NCBI GenBank assembly: GCA_945885625.1
Contig: CAMCYS010000002.1
Location: forward strand, 1 to 64,000
Length of the DNA stretch: 64,000 nucleotides
Reading direction: 5' to 3'
Source: Bifidobacterium breve
GTDB lineage: Bacteria; Actinomycetota; Actinomycetes; Nanopelagicales; Nanopelagicaceae
Every line of letters starts with the position of its first letter. The stretch's first letter is position 1. The position numbers and the translations under genes were made by a program. Shown piece by piece: positions 52,249-58,457 of the stretch. The notes under the pieces were generated by a model. The model searched no databases. It was not told the DNA's origin and worked only from the letters and a program-made list of their open reading frames with translations.

Positions 52249-53733
52249 ATGGTTAAGCAAATAAAAGGTCCGAGTGATCATGTCGTTGTAGTTGGTGCCG
52301 GTTATGCGGGACTGAGTGCAGCGCTACGACTTGCTGGCGCTGGCCGCAAAGTAACAATCATTGAACGCGAGTCTGTCCCTGGTGGGCGTAGTGGCTTACT
52401 TCAGAGCAATGGCTACTCATTCGATACCGGCCCAAGTGTATTAACGATGCCTTCGCTTATTAACGATGCATTTAATTGCGTTGGTGAAGAGCTAAAAGAC
52501 TGGGTTGACTTAATGCCGTTGAAGCCGCTTTACCGAGCTTTCTATGACGATGGTTCTCAAATCGATGTTCACGCGAACACCGAGGAAATGGAAGCCGAGA
52601 TTGCGCGCACCGTTAGTTCTAGCGAAGCAGCTGGCTATCGTCGATATGTGGAATTCGTAACTAAGTTATACAAGTATGAAATGAATGACTTTATCGATCG
52701 CAATATCGATTCACCATTGAACTTGTTAACACCGAACTTAGCTCGCTTAATTGCCCTCGGCGGTTTCCGCAAGCTGCAACCAAAAGTTAATCAGTATTTG
52801 AAGGACCCTCGTCTGCAAAAGGTTTACTCTTTCCAAGCCATGTATGCCGGGGTTAGCCCACAGCAAGCACTGGCTATCTACGCCGTAATTGCATATATGG
52901 ATTCAGTAAATGGGGTTTTCTTCCCTAAAGGCGGAATGCACGCAGTACCTGTTGCATTAGCCGCAGCTGCCCAAAAGCATGGTGTTGAAATTAAATACAG
53001 CACCACCGTCACCAAGATTGATTTTGAGAATGGCCGCGCAAAAGCGGTAATGACCGACAAAGGCGAGCGAATTACCTGTGATGCGGTCGTGCTAAATCCT
53101 GATCTGCCCGTTGCTTGGCGTGATCTTTTGGGTCAGACGCCACGTTCGGTAAAGCGTCTGCGCTACTCACCATCTTGCGCAACTATGTTGATCGGATCCA
53201 GCAAGAAATACGATCACATCGCGCACCACAATATTCACTTCGGTAAATCCTGGGATGGCGTCTTTAATGAACTAATCAATAAGAAGCAGTTGATGAGTGA
53301 TCCAAGTGTTCTAGTAACCGTGCCGACTCATGATGATCCAAATTTAGCCCCTGCCGGAAAGCAGAGTTACTACGTTCTATTCCCAACTCCGAACTTAACT
53401 GCCGATATTGATTGGCGCACAGAGTCAAAGCCTTATCGCGATCAAATGATTGCCACTCTTGAAGAGCGCGGCTATGACGGATTTGGCGATGCGATTGAAG
53501 AAGAACACTTAACTACTCCACTGGAATGGGAGGCAATGGGCTTGGAAGCTGGTGCGCCGTTCGCTAGTGCGCATACTTTCTTCCAAACTGGTCCGTTCCG
53601 CCCAAGTAATCTGGCTAAAGGTTTTGAGAATGTAGTTTTCACCGGCTCTGGTACTCAACCAGGTGTAGGCGTCCCAATGGTTTTGATCTCTGGCCGCTTA
53701 GCTGCTGAACGAATCGTGGGTCCGGTTAAGTAA
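52249..53733 (+). CDS. crtI: Phytoene desaturase
   Basis: 494 residues. FAD motif VVVGAGYAGLSAALRLA (14-30), then GRSGLLQSNGYSFDTGPSVL, and the C-terminal GSGTQPGVGVPMVLISGRLAAE typical of bacterial CrtI. It converts phytoene to lycopene in several steps. The final A of its TAA is the first base of the crtB ATG (TAATG). A second, more distant paralogue lies at 48146-49651. Confidence 0.93.
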   Translation: MVKQIKGPSDHVVVVGAGYAGLSAALRLAGAGRKVTIIERESVPGGRSGLLQSNGYSFDTGPSVLTMPSLINDAFNCVGEELKDWVDLMPLKPLYRAFYDDGSQIDVHANTEEMEAEIARTVSSSEAAGYRRYVEFVTKLYKYEMNDFIDRNIDSPLNLLTPNLARLIALGGFRKLQPKVNQYLKDPRLQKVYSFQAMYAGVSPQQALAIYAVIAYMDSVNGVFFPKGGMHAVPVALAAAAQKHGVEIKYSTTVTKIDFENGRAKAVMTDKGERITCDAVVLNPDLPVAWRDLLGQTPRSVKRLRYSPSCATMLIGSSKKYDHIAHHNIHFGKSWDGVFNELINKKQLMSDPSVLVTVPTHDDPNLAPAGKQSYYVLFPTPNLTADIDWRTESKPYRDQMIATLEERGYDGFGDAIEEEHLTTPLEWEAMGLEAGAPFASAHTFFQTGPFRPSNLAKGFENVVFTGSGTQPGVGVPMVLISGRLAAERIVGPVK

Positions 53734-54632
53734 TGGATGAATTAACTGCTGCTGGGATCACAGATCCGCAGCTGCGTACTTCATACGAAGAATGCAAGCG
53801 ACTAAATGCGCTGCACGGTAAAACTTATTACTTAGCCACTCTACTTTTGCCTAAAGCTAAGCGACCTTTCGTTCACGCTCTTTACGGGTTTGCTCGCTAT
53901 GCCGATGAAATTGTCGATGACCTGGCTTCGACTTTAACGGAAACTGAAAAAGCTACTGAATTAAAGACTTGGGGCGATCAAGTTTTGTCGGGGTTAAAAA
54001 GTGGCGATTCCAACGATCAAGTTGGTCGTGCTCTGATTGATACGGTAAATCGCTTCAATATCCCGCACGAACACTTTGTAGCCTTCCTGCACTCCATGAC
54101 TATGGATTTAACGGTTACTGAATATGCCAATTACGAAGCCTTAATGGAATATGTCTATGGTTCGGCAGCCGTAATCGGCCTTGAAATGGTGCCAATTTTG
54201 GGTGCTTTAAGTGAGGCAGCATATGAGCCAGCTGAAAAGTTGGGCGTTGCATTTCAATTAGCAAACTTCATTAGAGACGTTGGCGAAGATTTAGATCGTG
54301 GTCGGGTTTACCTGCCGCAAGATGAATTAGCCCAGTTTGGCGTAGATCACGAGATGTTAGCGGCTCGTAAATTGACTCCAGAAATTACCGCTGTGCTAAA
54401 GTTTCAAATTGAGCGGGTGCGGCAACTACAGCGCGAGGCCGCGCCTGGAATTCTGCAGCTAGAACCGGCCAGTCGACCTTGTATCGAAGCAGCGGGTGAG
54501 CTCTATTGCGGCATAGTCGATGAAGTTGAAGCAATCGGATATGACATCTTTAATAAGCGAGCAAAAACTTCCACCGCACGTCGAATGCGAGTGGCGGGTA
54601 AAGCTTATGTAAAGGCGATAGCTGCTCGTTAG
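53733..54632 (+). CDS. crtB: Phytoene synthase
   Basis: 299 residues. It condenses two GGPP to phytoene. First motif D58-E-I-V-D62 (RYADEIVDD), second motif NFIRDVGEDLDRGRVYLP with R181-D182 and D186. The ATG shares one base with the crtI TAA. The TAG stop overlaps the convergent crtYd TAA within TTAG (54629-54632), leaving no room for a bidirectional terminator. Confidence 0.96.
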   Translation: MDELTAAGITDPQLRTSYEECKRLNALHGKTYYLATLLLPKAKRPFVHALYGFARYADEIVDDLASTLTETEKATELKTWGDQVLSGLKSGDSNDQVGRALIDTVNRFNIPHEHFVAFLHSMTMDLTVTEYANYEALMEYVYGSAAVIGLEMVPILGALSEAAYEPAEKLGVAFQLANFIRDVGEDLDRGRVYLPQDELAQFGVDHEMLAARKLTPEITAVLKFQIERVRQLQREAAPGILQLEPASRPCIEAAGELYCGIVDEVEAIGYDIFNKRAKTSTARRMRVAGKAYVKAIAAR

Positions 54633-54931
54633 TTTTTATGCGCTTTGCGACCTAAATAAACCCAGGTTGCCATTACCGAAAGAATTAGCGCAAAGCCAAA
54701 AAATAAGTCTTCCATTGGTGCAGATGCAATACGAATTCCCAAAATAGCATCTTTGCTATACATGACAATATTTCTCGAAGTTAGCCACCAATTTGTTAGC
54801 AACTGAAATAGCAAAATAATTGCATACGAAGTCCAGAACACTTTTCGTTTTAGCAGCTTTGTCTTAAGCACTGCTAAATCAATAAAGGCGGCAAGTAAAA
54901 CGGCGATGAAAGCTATTTGAGTGTAAGTCAT
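54629..54931 (-). CDS. crtYd: Lycopene cyclase subunit CrtYd
   Basis: 100 residues from ATG 54929-54931, which overlaps the crtYc stop as ATGA; a start further out (54952) is less likely. Three membrane helices, with ASAPMEDLFFGF holding the conserved PxE(D/E) of the heterodimeric cyclases. CrtYc and CrtYd act together to cyclise lycopene ends to gamma- or beta-carotene in actinobacteria. Confidence 0.9.
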   Translation of the reverse strand: MTYTQIAFIAVLLAAFIDLAVLKTKLLKRKVFWTSYAIILLFQLLTNWWLTSRNIVMYSKDAILGIRIASAPMEDLFFGFALILSVMATWVYLGRKAHKN

Positions 54932-55260
54932 GACTCGTCTCCTACTACCCAATGCTTTTTGACTGTTCGGACCGCTTCGATGGTTAGCAAAGCGGCTAGT
55001 GGCACAATTAGAAAAAATAAGAACTCTTCTAGTGGAATACCAAATGGTCCGAATATTCCCAAGATTTGTTTCTCATCAAAATACCAATGGCCACTACGAA
55101 TGGCATAGGCATCCCAGATCAGGAAGAAGAGCGCGGTCGGTAAAATACTTAAAATTACTCGTTTAAATCTCCGAACAACACCGACCTTTAAAAATACTTC
55201 TAGCCAGATTGACCCCAATAGCGTAAAGGCCAACATCGCCAGGTAGCCATATTTCTGCAC
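54928..55260 (-). CDS. crtYc: Lycopene cyclase subunit CrtYc
   Basis: 110 residues from GTG 55258-55260. Three membrane helices and the segment FGIPLEEFLFFLIVP with the PLEE motif near the third helix. Partner of CrtYd (ATGA overlap). These subunits are encoded opposite to crtE-I-B and meet crtB tail to tail. A CAGAAT at -12 to -7 may be a weak leaderless -10. About 57 bases separate it from the TPP riboswitch that reads the other way. Confidence 0.9.
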   Translation of the reverse strand: MQKYGYLAMLAFTLLGSIWLEVFLKVGVVRRFKRVILSILPTALFFLIWDAYAIRSGHWYFDEKQILGIFGPFGIPLEEFLFFLIVPLAALLTIEAVRTVKKHWVVGDES

Positions 55261-55315
55261 GGTTTAATTCTGTCGTAAAGCAGCGCAATTTGCTTACTAA
55301 ATCGCTATAGTTTGC

Positions 55316-55406
55316 GATGCGGGAGCCGACAGAAATTGGCTGAGAGGATCTGTAATTCACAGATCGACCGCTTGACCGGTCCGGTAATGCGGACCTGGAA
55401 CGGAGT
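55316..55406 (+). promoter_or_regulatory. TPP riboswitch (THI element)
   Basis: The aptamer core is complete: GGGAGCC, GGCTGAGAGGATC, a P3 extension GATCTGT-AATTC-ACAGATC (55347-55365), GACCGCTTGACC, and GGTCCGGTAATGCGGACC followed by TGGAACGGAG. CTGAGA and GGTAATGC match the pyrimidine-sensing and pyrophosphate-sensing parts. The GGAG at its 3' edge (55402-55405) is also the ribosome-binding site of the next gene, six bases before the ATG, so control is probably by hiding the site when TPP is bound. Confidence 0.93.
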
Positions 55407-55411
55407 TAATT

Positions 55412-56002
55412 ATGTCCTATTCACTTTTTACTGCCTGGGGCTATCAAGTTTCGATTTTGGAATTTGTCGCTTCAGTTACAGCATTAATCGGAGTTTGGCT
55501 AGGCACCACAGGCAAGCGAATTACTTGGCCGTGGTGGGGTCTAAGCAGCGCACTTTATGCCGTCTTCTTCTACCAAGCTAACTTACTTGCCAGCGCTGCT
55601 CTACAGTTTGTATTTATCGCCGCTGCGATAAGTGGCTGGCGAGGTTGGGCGCCGACTGGTGCGAAACCTGGCAACTTGAGCACACGTGGCCGCATCTATT
55701 CAATTCTGGCGATACTTGGTTTGTGGTTGGCACTGGCACCGTTGCTCTCTCGAATTGGTGCGGCAGCGACAGTAGTTGATTCATTTCTATTTGTTGGCTC
55801 ATTGACCGCACAGATCTTGATGGTCTTAGAAAAATATGAGAGTTGGATAATCTGGTTAGTTGTGGATATAGCGGGCACGGCTCTCTACTTCAATCAAGGT
55901 TACTATTTCACCTCTTTCCTATATGGAATTTTCACACTAATTGCTCTTCAAGGTTGGAGGCGTTGGTATGCAGATCAACGAAGCGCTCCGCGACCTATTT
56001 AG
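55412..56002 (+). CDS. pnuT: PnuC-family transporter, probable thiamine transporter PnuT
   Basis: 196 residues, seven membrane helices. The sequence FTAWGYQVSILEFVASVTAL and then TWPWWGLSSALYAVFFYQ, and later WIIWLVVDIAGTALYF, follow the PnuC family. PnuC members carry nicotinamide riboside, whereas TPP-riboswitch-controlled members (PnuT) carry thiamine; the riboswitch right upstream makes thiamine the likely cargo. It overlaps the next gene by 35 bases. Confidence 0.88.
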   Translation: MSYSLFTAWGYQVSILEFVASVTALIGVWLGTTGKRITWPWWGLSSALYAVFFYQANLLASAALQFVFIAAAISGWRGWAPTGAKPGNLSTRGRIYSILAILGLWLALAPLLSRIGAAATVVDSFLFVGSLTAQILMVLEKYESWIIWLVVDIAGTALYFNQGYYFTSFLYGIFTLIALQGWRRWYADQRSAPRPI

Positions 56003-56510
56003 CGAATCAGCTAAACCACTTGTCCTAGCAATTGACGGCCCAGCAGGTTCTGGAAAGAGCACGTTAGCCGGTGAGATCGCTCGTGCCTTTTCTGGCACTT
56101 ACGAGATTGAAGTTATACATCTTGACGAGTTATATAACGGTTGGGATAACGCACTTTCAGAAGAACTATTTCAGCGCATCGCTCAGCTAATTGCGGCTCA
56201 GCGAGCAGGCCAGGTTTCCGAACTAGCTATTTATGATTGGTCGGCAGGAACTTTTTCTGGTTCGCGGGAGATTAAGGCTGCACAACTTCTAATTATTGAA
56301 GGCGTAGGCAGCTCAAATCAGCTGCTTCATAAGAGCTTCACAACTTCGATCTGGCTAGACATTGATCAAAGTATTGGATTGGCGCGGGTTTTAGGGCGCG
56401 ATGGCGAAGAGATACGTGATGAGATGGTCAAGTGGCAGCAGATGGAAAGTGAATATTTTGCACGCGACTTAACTCGCGAAAGAGCGGATTTCATCCTCTC
56501 TACGCAATAG
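55968..56510 (+). CDS. P-loop kinase of the uridine-kinase superfamily in the TPP operon
   Basis: 180 residues from ATG 55968, with GGAGG seven bases upstream; a start at 55941 lacks that site. Walker A is DGPAGSGKST (23-32), the following acidic loop is HLDELYNGWDN (51-61), and the lid region near RVLGRDGEEIRDE is arginine-rich. The family phosphorylates small hydroxyl substrates such as nucleosides or vitamins. It overlaps pnuT by 35 bases under the same TPP riboswitch, so thiamine or a thiamine precursor is a candidate substrate. This is inference; no family member of known substrate is recognised. Confidence 0.7.
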   Translation: MQINEALRDLFSESAKPLVLAIDGPAGSGKSTLAGEIARAFSGTYEIEVIHLDELYNGWDNALSEELFQRIAQLIAAQRAGQVSELAIYDWSAGTFSGSREIKAAQLLIIEGVGSSNQLLHKSFTTSIWLDIDQSIGLARVLGRDGEEIRDEMVKWQQMESEYFARDLTRERADFILSTQ

Positions 56511-56528: not shown

Positions 56529-58457
56529 GTGTCTGATCTAACTGGCGAATTAATTGATGACCGTTACCAGTTAACGGCGCTGCTTGCGACAGGTGGCATG
56601 GCAACAATTTACAGTGGCATCGACACTCGGCTAGATCGCAAGGTTGCCGTCAAGATCATGCACCCGCATCTCGCACAGGATGAAGATTTCGTTGGTCGCT
56701 TTATTCGTGAAGCAAAAGCCGCCGCCTCACTATCGCATCCAAATATTGTGACAGTACAAGATCAAGGTTGGAATCAGAGTGGCATTCCGGCAGTTTTCAT
56801 TGTGATGGAACTAGTCGAAGGCCACACTCTTCGTGATTACATTCATGAACGAGGCAAACTCGCAATTGATGATGCGCTTTCATTTATCGAACCTGTCTTA
56901 AGCGCACTAGCCGCCGCTCACAATATTGGGATCATTCATCGTGACATAAAGCCAGAAAATATTTTGATCTCAAAGGAAGGCCGCGTAAAGATCGCCGACT
57001 TCGGCTTAGCCCGAGGCAATATGTTGGGTACGACAATGACGGCTGAATCCAGCGTGATTCTTGGCAGCGTGTCATACCTATCCCCTGAGCAAGTTCAACG
57101 AGGTGTTGCAGATTCGCGTAGCGATGTTTACGCCGCGGCGATTGTGTTATTCGAAATGATCACTGGCGAAAAACCATTTGCTGCCGAAACGCCAATCCAA
57201 ATCGCCTATATGCATGTAAACGAGAAGATCCCATTATTGAGTAGCAAGCTAAAAGGCGTTCCAACAGCTCTTGAGAACCTGGTTGCCAAAGCTACAAGCG
57301 CTAACCCAGATGATCGACCACGTGATGCCGGTGAATTTCTGGCTGAGCTCGAACGTGTACGCAGTGAAATTGATCCGAAACGTAAGCAGATGAGTCTTCA
57401 GTTAGATCTGCCAGTTGCTCCAATTCGAGAAGAAGTGCGAGATAGATCTCGTGCTGCCAAGCGTGCCGAAGCTGCGAAATCAGCGCAAGCAACCGAGATA
57501 GTTGCCCCCATGACCGAGAGCACTGCAGGCACTAAGAATGATCGCGCCGAAGAGCGCCGCCGCGTAAGTAAACGAGTTCGTCGCAATCGCATCATCGCGT
57601 TACTGCTAGCTGTAACTGTTGGCGCTTCCGGTTGGTGGATCATCCTTGGTCCAGGCGCAAAAGTCAGCGTGCCTTCAGTCATTGGTGCTTCAGTTGATAA
57701 AGCTAATTCTCTGCTAACTCCACTTGGACTTAAGAGTGAAGTTACCGATCGAGTTTATAGTGAAGAAGATGCTGAAGGATTGATCATCGCGCAAAACCCA
57801 GCCGGCGGCGACAAGACTGATCCAAATGGCACTGTGAAATTAACCGTCTCTAAAGGTGCTGAGCGTTATTTAGTCCCACAACTCGTTGGCTTAACACCAG
57901 AGGCTGCCGTAAATGCCATCGCTAAATTTCCGATTAAAACCGGAACAATTACGGAAGTATTTAACTCGCAAATTCCGAAAGGTTTTGTAATTTCGGCTAA
58001 ACCTGCACCAGGTACAAAAGTACGTCGTGATGCCACAATTGATTTGGTAGTCAGCAAGGGTATTGAAACCCTGGCGCTAGCTTCATACGTTGGGAAAATT
58101 GGTGAAGAAGCTCTTACAGAGTTAACTGAGGCTGGCTTTGATGTAACGGTCACATATGCCTTTGATGAAAAAATAATTCCGGGTGGCGTAATTTCACAGA
58201 ACCCCGCTACTGGCGACATTCCTAAAGGTGCAAAAATTGAATTAAAGATTTCTAAAGGTTCATCACTTATAACTATCCCAACTAATGGAATTATTGGGCA
58301 GACCCAAGCCAAAGCGACTCAAATTCTTGAGGATCTTGGTTTGGTAGTTAAAGTGAAAACTCTTGGCGCTAATAGGGCGAAAAAGGTAATTAATGTTTCA
58401 CCGAAAGAGGGCACCAAGGTCAAACGTGGCGACACTGTGACCATCACAGTAGGCTAG
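56529..58457 (+). CDS. pknB: PASTA-domain Ser/Thr protein kinase (PknB-like)
   Basis: 642 residues from GTG 56529. Kinase domain 13-275: glycine loop LLATGGMATIYSG, K42 (VAVKIM), HRD at 137-139 with KPEN, DFG at 157-159, activation loop ending in SPEQ. A basic juxtamembrane segment (RVSKRVRRNR), one membrane helix (about 355-372), then four PASTA repeats of about 65 residues, each ending in SKG or TVG. PASTA repeats sense muropeptides or lipid II and regulate wall growth and division. It is not beside the dcw genes but probably serves them. The gene has its own leaderless-type promoter. Confidence 0.95.
   Translation: MSDLTGELIDDRYQLTALLATGGMATIYSGIDTRLDRKVAVKIMHPHLAQDEDFVGRFIREAKAAASLSHPNIVTVQDQGWNQSGIPAVFIVMELVEGHTLRDYIHERGKLAIDDALSFIEPVLSALAAAHNIGIIHRDIKPENILISKEGRVKIADFGLARGNMLGTTMTAESSVILGSVSYLSPEQVQRGVADSRSDVYAAAIVLFEMITGEKPFAAETPIQIAYMHVNEKIPLLSSKLKGVPTALENLVAKATSANPDDRPRDAGEFLAELERVRSEIDPKRKQMSLQLDLPVAPIREEVRDRSRAAKRAEAAKSAQATEIVAPMTESTAGTKNDRAEERRRVSKRVRRNRIIALLLAVTVGASGWWIILGPGAKVSVPSVIGASVDKANSLLTPLGLKSEVTDRVYSEEDAEGLIIAQNPAGGDKTDPNGTVKLTVSKGAERYLVPQLVGLTPEAAVNAIAKFPIKTGTITEVFNSQIPKGFVISAKPAPGTKVRRDATIDLVVSKGIETLALASYVGKIGEEALTELTEAGFDVTVTYAFDEKIIPGGVISQNPATGDIPKGAKIELKISKGSSLITIPTNGIIGQTQAKATQILEDLGLVVKVKTLGANRAKKVINVSPKEGTKVKRGDTVTITVG

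Follow-up and report, generated by a model that had tools for sequence, protein, structure and literature searches.

A variant TPP-type aptamer, a PnuC-family transporter and a P-loop kinase form a predicted thiamine uptake-and-trap operon in acI-type actinobacteria

Organization of the locus

The window, a stretch of 64,000 nucleotides from a 1.44-Mb, streamlined actinobacterial genome (91% complete) that probably belongs to the acI/Nanopelagicales freshwater group, carries on its forward strand a TPP-type aptamer, a PnuC-family gene and a P-loop kinase gene that together form one operon (55309-56510). A putative -10 element, TATAGT (55306..55311, +), ends 7 bases 5' of the aptamer core (55319..55402, +), a variant form that is kept in relatives and lies within a match to RF00059 at 55309-55418. 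Immediately behind the core, at the 3' edge where the preliminary description had placed it, the GGAG at 55402-55405 (+) is the Shine-Dalgarno sequence of the transporter gene, 6 bases 5' of its ATG at 55412. The transporter (196 aa; 55412..56002, +) and the kinase (180 aa; 55968..56510, +, from the ATG at 55968 to the stop at 56510) are encoded by overlapping genes; the overlap, described before as a kinase start 35 bases within the transporter gene, is exactly 35 bases. The kinase has the P-loop GPAGSGKST, of which GPAGSGKS forms the Walker A motif (residues 24-31; 56037..56060, +), and G24, G29 and K30 are invariant across 40 relatives.

Beside the operon, putative carotenoid genes occupy 52249-55260, including phytoene desaturase-like and phytoene synthase-like ORFs as well as genes for two lycopene cyclase subunits (PF18916) on the minus strand. 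On the other flank, the gene for a PASTA-domain Ser/Thr protein kinase (56529-58457) begins 18 bases past the predicted thiamine kinase gene. Protein-kinase-like matches are also found near the kinase in G014, G180 and G298.

A predicted PnuT transporter paired with a kinase across relatives

The assignment of the first gene to the PnuC family, made earlier from the letters of the sequence, holds in a profile search, with the product scoring 136.1 bits against PF04973 (gathering threshold 27.3, E = 1.6e-39). From its family, which includes acI orthologues, and its genomic context, we predict that this protein is PnuT, a thiamine-specific facilitator. The available excerpt of Kang et al. (PMC5301498) already proposes that the pnuC gene controlled by a THI element in acI encodes PnuT, and describes acI strains as thiamine auxotrophs without nearly all salvage enzymes. 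The window locus fits the THI element-pnuC arrangement given there, which favours placing its genome with acI.

The preliminary description had proposed asking how often the gene pair is conserved. With tblastn searches using both proteins, we found that the transporter adjoins or overlaps the kinase at all 30 same-genus loci, and that a TPP aptamer is present at 29 of them, the exception (L023) running off its contig. The complete trio also occurs in other genera of the same family (L107, L111, L112, L113), in a second family (L105, from a 1.5-Mb genome) and at three named loci (L121-L123). Because the pairing of PnuC with the kinase recurs throughout the same-genus loci, in other genera and in a second family, it is not a product of chance. 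In one actinobacterial MAG (L124:5977-6531), a close kin of the PnuT-linked kinases has no detectable PnuC gene adjoining it.

Family and fold of the kinase

A search against kinase family profiles, also suggested in the preliminary description, returned as by far the best curated model NF005115/PRK06547, which NCBIfam labels 'hypothetical protein' (96.8 bits, 9.3e-28), in line with the earlier remark that no family member with a thiamine-type substrate is recognized. The window protein lies below the curated cut-off of this model (173 bits), which relatives from other families exceed. Its scores against the uridine kinase model TIGR00235 (36.4 bits, curated cut-off 220.3) and the NadR kinase model TIGR01526 (17.5 bits, cut-off 341) are far lower, and curated family profiles gave no significant membership of the NadR or NRK families. 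The APH family (PF01636), which has the ThiK fold, was not among the best 25 of 33 Pfam families for the kinase, and no match to TPK_catalytic (PF04263) was found. PADLOC matches were rejected as P-loop cross-hits.

The family has conserved motifs of its own, DxxYxGW and W91; besides the three P-loop residues, G58, W59, W91, E111, G112 and R140 are invariant over 40 members. An AlphaFold2 model of the kinase (pLDDT 96.2) is closest, among the families listed, to uridine-cytidine kinases (1uej_B, Z 19.4 over 164 residues at 2.3 A), followed by pantothenate kinase, phosphoribulokinase and nicotinamide riboside kinase. The protein is thus uridine-kinase-like in fold, as had been noted from its P-loop, though far under the Udk cut-off. 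The modelled fold is indicative of a small-molecule kinase and leaves the substrate unspecified. A chorismate-binding enzyme that resembles PabB or anthranilate synthase carries this kinase domain as a fusion partner in two genomes of one actinobacterial family (L089:4826-6934 and L096:4725-6845); given this fusion, the kinase family need not share one substrate.

A missing step in the thiamine pathway

Identifying which thiamine enzymes these genomes retain narrows the choice of substrate considerably. ThiL is kept in the genus, with only fragments of it or no match in a few of the incomplete genomes, whereas thiamine pyrophosphokinase (PF04263) is found in none of 37 genus members (the window genome and 36 congeners) and in none of 16 genomes checked from the same and other families. 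With ThiL retained and the pyrophosphokinase absent, the step that is missing is the conversion of thiamine to TMP. ThiE is absent from the genus, where only marginal matches of at most 20 bits occur, one of them lifted just above the cut-off by in-frame neighbours. ThiC was found in none of 11 genomes searched, nearly all of them complete or near-complete and the window genome among them; for the ThiD family, the same 11 genomes gave nothing above 30 bits and the window genome no match at all. Since ThiE and ThiC are lacking and ThiD is unconvincing, HMP-P and HET-P would be dead ends here, and the TMP used by ThiL must come from thiamine. In G061 (complete) and G162 (near-complete), APH-family (ThiK-type) matches are only of the weak kind that protein kinases give. 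The operon kinase is the only candidate source of TMP common to these genomes. Of the three substrates named in the preliminary description, the pathway gap therefore favours thiamine, while gene content removes HET and HMP.

A comparison of ThiE and kinase presence over 296 genomes gave no discrimination, the kinase family being common both with and without ThiE, and is not counted as support. Four actinobacterial genomes (G040, G068, G099, G209) are among those with neither ThiE nor a clear kinase member, suggesting that another solution for thiamine phosphorylation may exist.

The kinase follows unrelated thiamine importers

Outside the first genus set, a thiamine-type importer lies immediately upstream of the kinase on the same strand at 35 of 120 wider loci. 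The most frequent is YkoEDC (YkoE, PF09819; YkoC, CbiQ), which directly precedes the kinase at 20 of the 120 in hosts including Cryobacterium, Agreia, Leifsonia, Agromyces, Mycobacterium and Corynebacterium. PnuC precedes it at 8, a ThiY-like binding protein at 4 (assigned only as SsuA-like, the weakest class) and ThiB-ThiP at 3, two from Leucobacter and one from Cellulomonadaceae; the ThiB of L168 scores above the TIGR01254 cut-off, and the ThiP assignments are weaker. TPP riboswitches above the gathering threshold precede YkoEDC-kinase operons at L076 and L088, and likewise at L133, L136, L140, L142, L144, L150, L176 and L182. A model built from 20 aptamers (R1) adds further riboswitches, including those of both Leucobacter ThiB-ThiP-kinase loci, L127 and L108; L076 and L088 contributed to this model, so that a match there would be automatic, and were left out of the R1 search. 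In a tree of 119 kinases, whose bootstrap had not settled, the importer contexts occupy several distinct positions (10 changes over five labels, against 39.4 when shuffled). Because the kinase recurs behind unrelated thiamine importers, the simplest reading is that it is a thiamine kinase.

At the remaining 85 of the 120 loci, no thiamine transporter adjoins the kinase. The preliminary description had considered homologues lying mostly outside TPP-controlled operons and acting on nucleosides as the case that would speak against its proposal; these 85 loci agree with the first part of that case, but none of their kinases has a known nucleoside substrate.

Proposed function and its alternatives

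Comparison across many relatives indicates that the kinase is a strong candidate for the missing enzyme that would add the first phosphate to imported thiamine. We propose that the operon works as a unit for thiamine uptake and trapping, with a kinase that makes TMP for ThiL, and we place the probability of this reading at roughly 0.84. Thiamine would diffuse into the cell through the PnuC-type protein, as its family and context suggest; the kinase, a predicted thiamine kinase (thiamine + ATP -> TMP) by family, fold and context, would phosphorylate the hydroxyethyl group with ATP; and the resulting TMP, unable to leave the cell, would be trapped. ThiL, whose gene is present elsewhere in the genome, would then turn TMP into TPP in keeping with the activity of its family. 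The leader RNA would stop translation of the transporter when the vitamin is plentiful, a control that may reach the kinase via the 35-base overlap. More broadly, several actinobacterial lineages appear to draw their thiamine kinase from an unnamed uridine-kinase-fold family that has no relation to the ThiK of enterobacteria.

The closest challenge to this function comes from the uridine-cytidine kinases that are the nearest solved folds: the protein could act on a nucleoside or another metabolite, its adjacency to the importer being incidental, with TMP supplied from outside or by an APH-type kinase. APH-family proteins are indeed present in the window genome, and most members of the kinase family are located away from thiamine transporters. 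However, it would then be left to coincidence that four unrelated thiamine-type importers adjoin the kinase at several places in the tree; the score far under the Udk cut-off also speaks against a nucleoside, and G061 and G162 have no credible APH protein to take over the task. We consider this explanation very improbable.

Annotations often name HMP as the substrate imported by YkoEDC and ThiY-like systems; since some related kinases follow such systems, it could be argued that the kinase phosphorylates HMP or hydroxyethyl-thiazole brought in by the PnuC protein. With the gene content described above, the genus could make no use of either product, and we regard this substrate choice as very unlikely; YkoEDC and the ThiY-like systems, for their part, may import HMP instead of thiamine. 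A new type of one-step thiamine pyrophosphokinase would likewise account for genomes that have no known TPK, but it would leave the retained ThiL idle, and the fold is that of kinases that form monophosphates, so that a one-step enzyme seems to us hardly probable.

The aptamer lacks the pyrophosphate-sensing loop

The RF00059 match at 55309-55418 (+) scores 38.2 bits (E = 3e-6), below the gathering threshold of 54.3 bits, and the aptamers of relatives score 32-46 bits. As a consequence, a default Rfam scan lists no aptamer here; it was detected with the scan in E-value mode, and no other TPP aptamer candidate in the window genome is credible. The preliminary description had called the aptamer complete, which is correct for the pyrimidine pocket (GGCUGAGAGG) but not for the J4/5 pyrophosphate pocket, which the RNA lacks. 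The J3/2 motif that binds the pyrimidine (HMP), GGCTGAGAGG (55338..55347, +), is intact and varies little or not at all across 34 variant and 19 canonical aptamers, the CUGAGA of J3/2 being invariant in alignment A3. The L5 loop is also intact in the variant aptamers.

The P4/J4-5/P5 arm of the TPP aptamer is the pyrophosphate sensor (PMC4775224, PMC4112796). In the variant, the J4/5 internal loop (UGAU / GCGU-A) is replaced by a near-continuous P4-P5 helix (55376..55398, +), whereas the 19 canonical aptamers, from YkoEDC, ThiBP and ThiY loci, retain a loop of the GAACCUGAU...GCGCAGG type; relative to these, the variants have two fewer bases on the 5' side and one fewer on the 3' side. Over 34 sequences of the lineage, the helix comprises 8 pairs with 96.3% of cells paired, and slid controls drop to about 45% paired or less, a contrast that is somewhat favourable as the structure was read from the same sequences. 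Independent of that, 6 pairs are changed on both sides, and the covariation of 0.395 exceeds the shuffled mean of 0.169. For example, alignment columns 82/99 hold CG, GC and AU pairs, and columns 83/98 hold GC, GU and AU.

Given that a covarying continuous helix replaces J4/5 throughout the lineage, the ligand of the variant aptamer is uncertain. With the pyrimidine pocket and L5 kept and the pyrophosphate pocket closed into a plain helix, we tentatively raise the possibility that the TPP riboswitch of this lineage has come to sense another form of thiamine, and may respond to thiamine or TMP and not to TPP. If so, the riboswitch would sense the substrate or the product of the kinase under its control.

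At 34 of the 36 loci with a variant aptamer, a TANNNT sequence precedes P2, ending 5-9 bases (mostly 7) ahead of it. Shuffled sequences would give 4.5 such loci, although the observed count overstates independence because near relatives share ancestry. If these sequences are -10 elements, the transcript begins at the aptamer core without the P1 5' strand. Judging from the sequence, the window transcript probably starts at or beside P2, and no P1 5' strand would be made.

Implications and comparison with known systems

Actinobacteria of the freshwater acI type, which rank with the most common bacteria in lakes, are auxotrophic for vitamin B1, and the previously unexplained gap between the thiamine they import and ThiL now has a candidate enzyme. 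Our analysis also proposes a function for an unnamed kinase family that is spread through Actinomycetia, including relatives in Mycobacterium and Corynebacterium, and, with the variant leader, the loss of the pyrophosphate pocket from a TPP aptamer becomes open to experiment.

The operon has its nearest parallels in the PnuT systems of Bacteroidetes and others, in which a TPP riboswitch likewise controls a Pnu-type facilitator paired with a phosphorylating enzyme; the known partner there is thiamine pyrophosphokinase or ThiK and not a P-loop protein of uridine-kinase fold. ThiK of E. coli carries out the reaction predicted here, from thiamine to TMP for ThiL, but has the APH/choline-kinase fold, whereas the window protein is a P-loop kinase. 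The pairing of PnuC with NadR or nicotinamide riboside kinase also combines facilitated uptake with trapping by phosphorylation, although it handles vitamin B3 and the window pair is predicted to handle B1; the similarity of NRK1 to the window kinase is distant and limited to fold (Z 12.9). The Udk family shares the fold and the P-loop, and differs in score and conserved motifs.

The acI THI element-pnuC locus of PMC5301498 matches the window locus in transporter, leader and type of organism, and the available excerpt of that account makes no mention of the overlapping kinase or the altered aptamer. Searches of the open-access literature found no published P-loop thiamine kinase or TPP aptamer lacking J4/5. 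Vitamin uptake through a Pnu transporter combined with trapping by a kinase has precedents for B3 and, where other enzymes take the place of the kinase, for B1. What is new in comparison, as far as the open-access literature shows, is a TPP aptamer without the pyrophosphate loop and a family of P-loop kinases that probably provides several actinobacterial lineages with their thiamine kinase.
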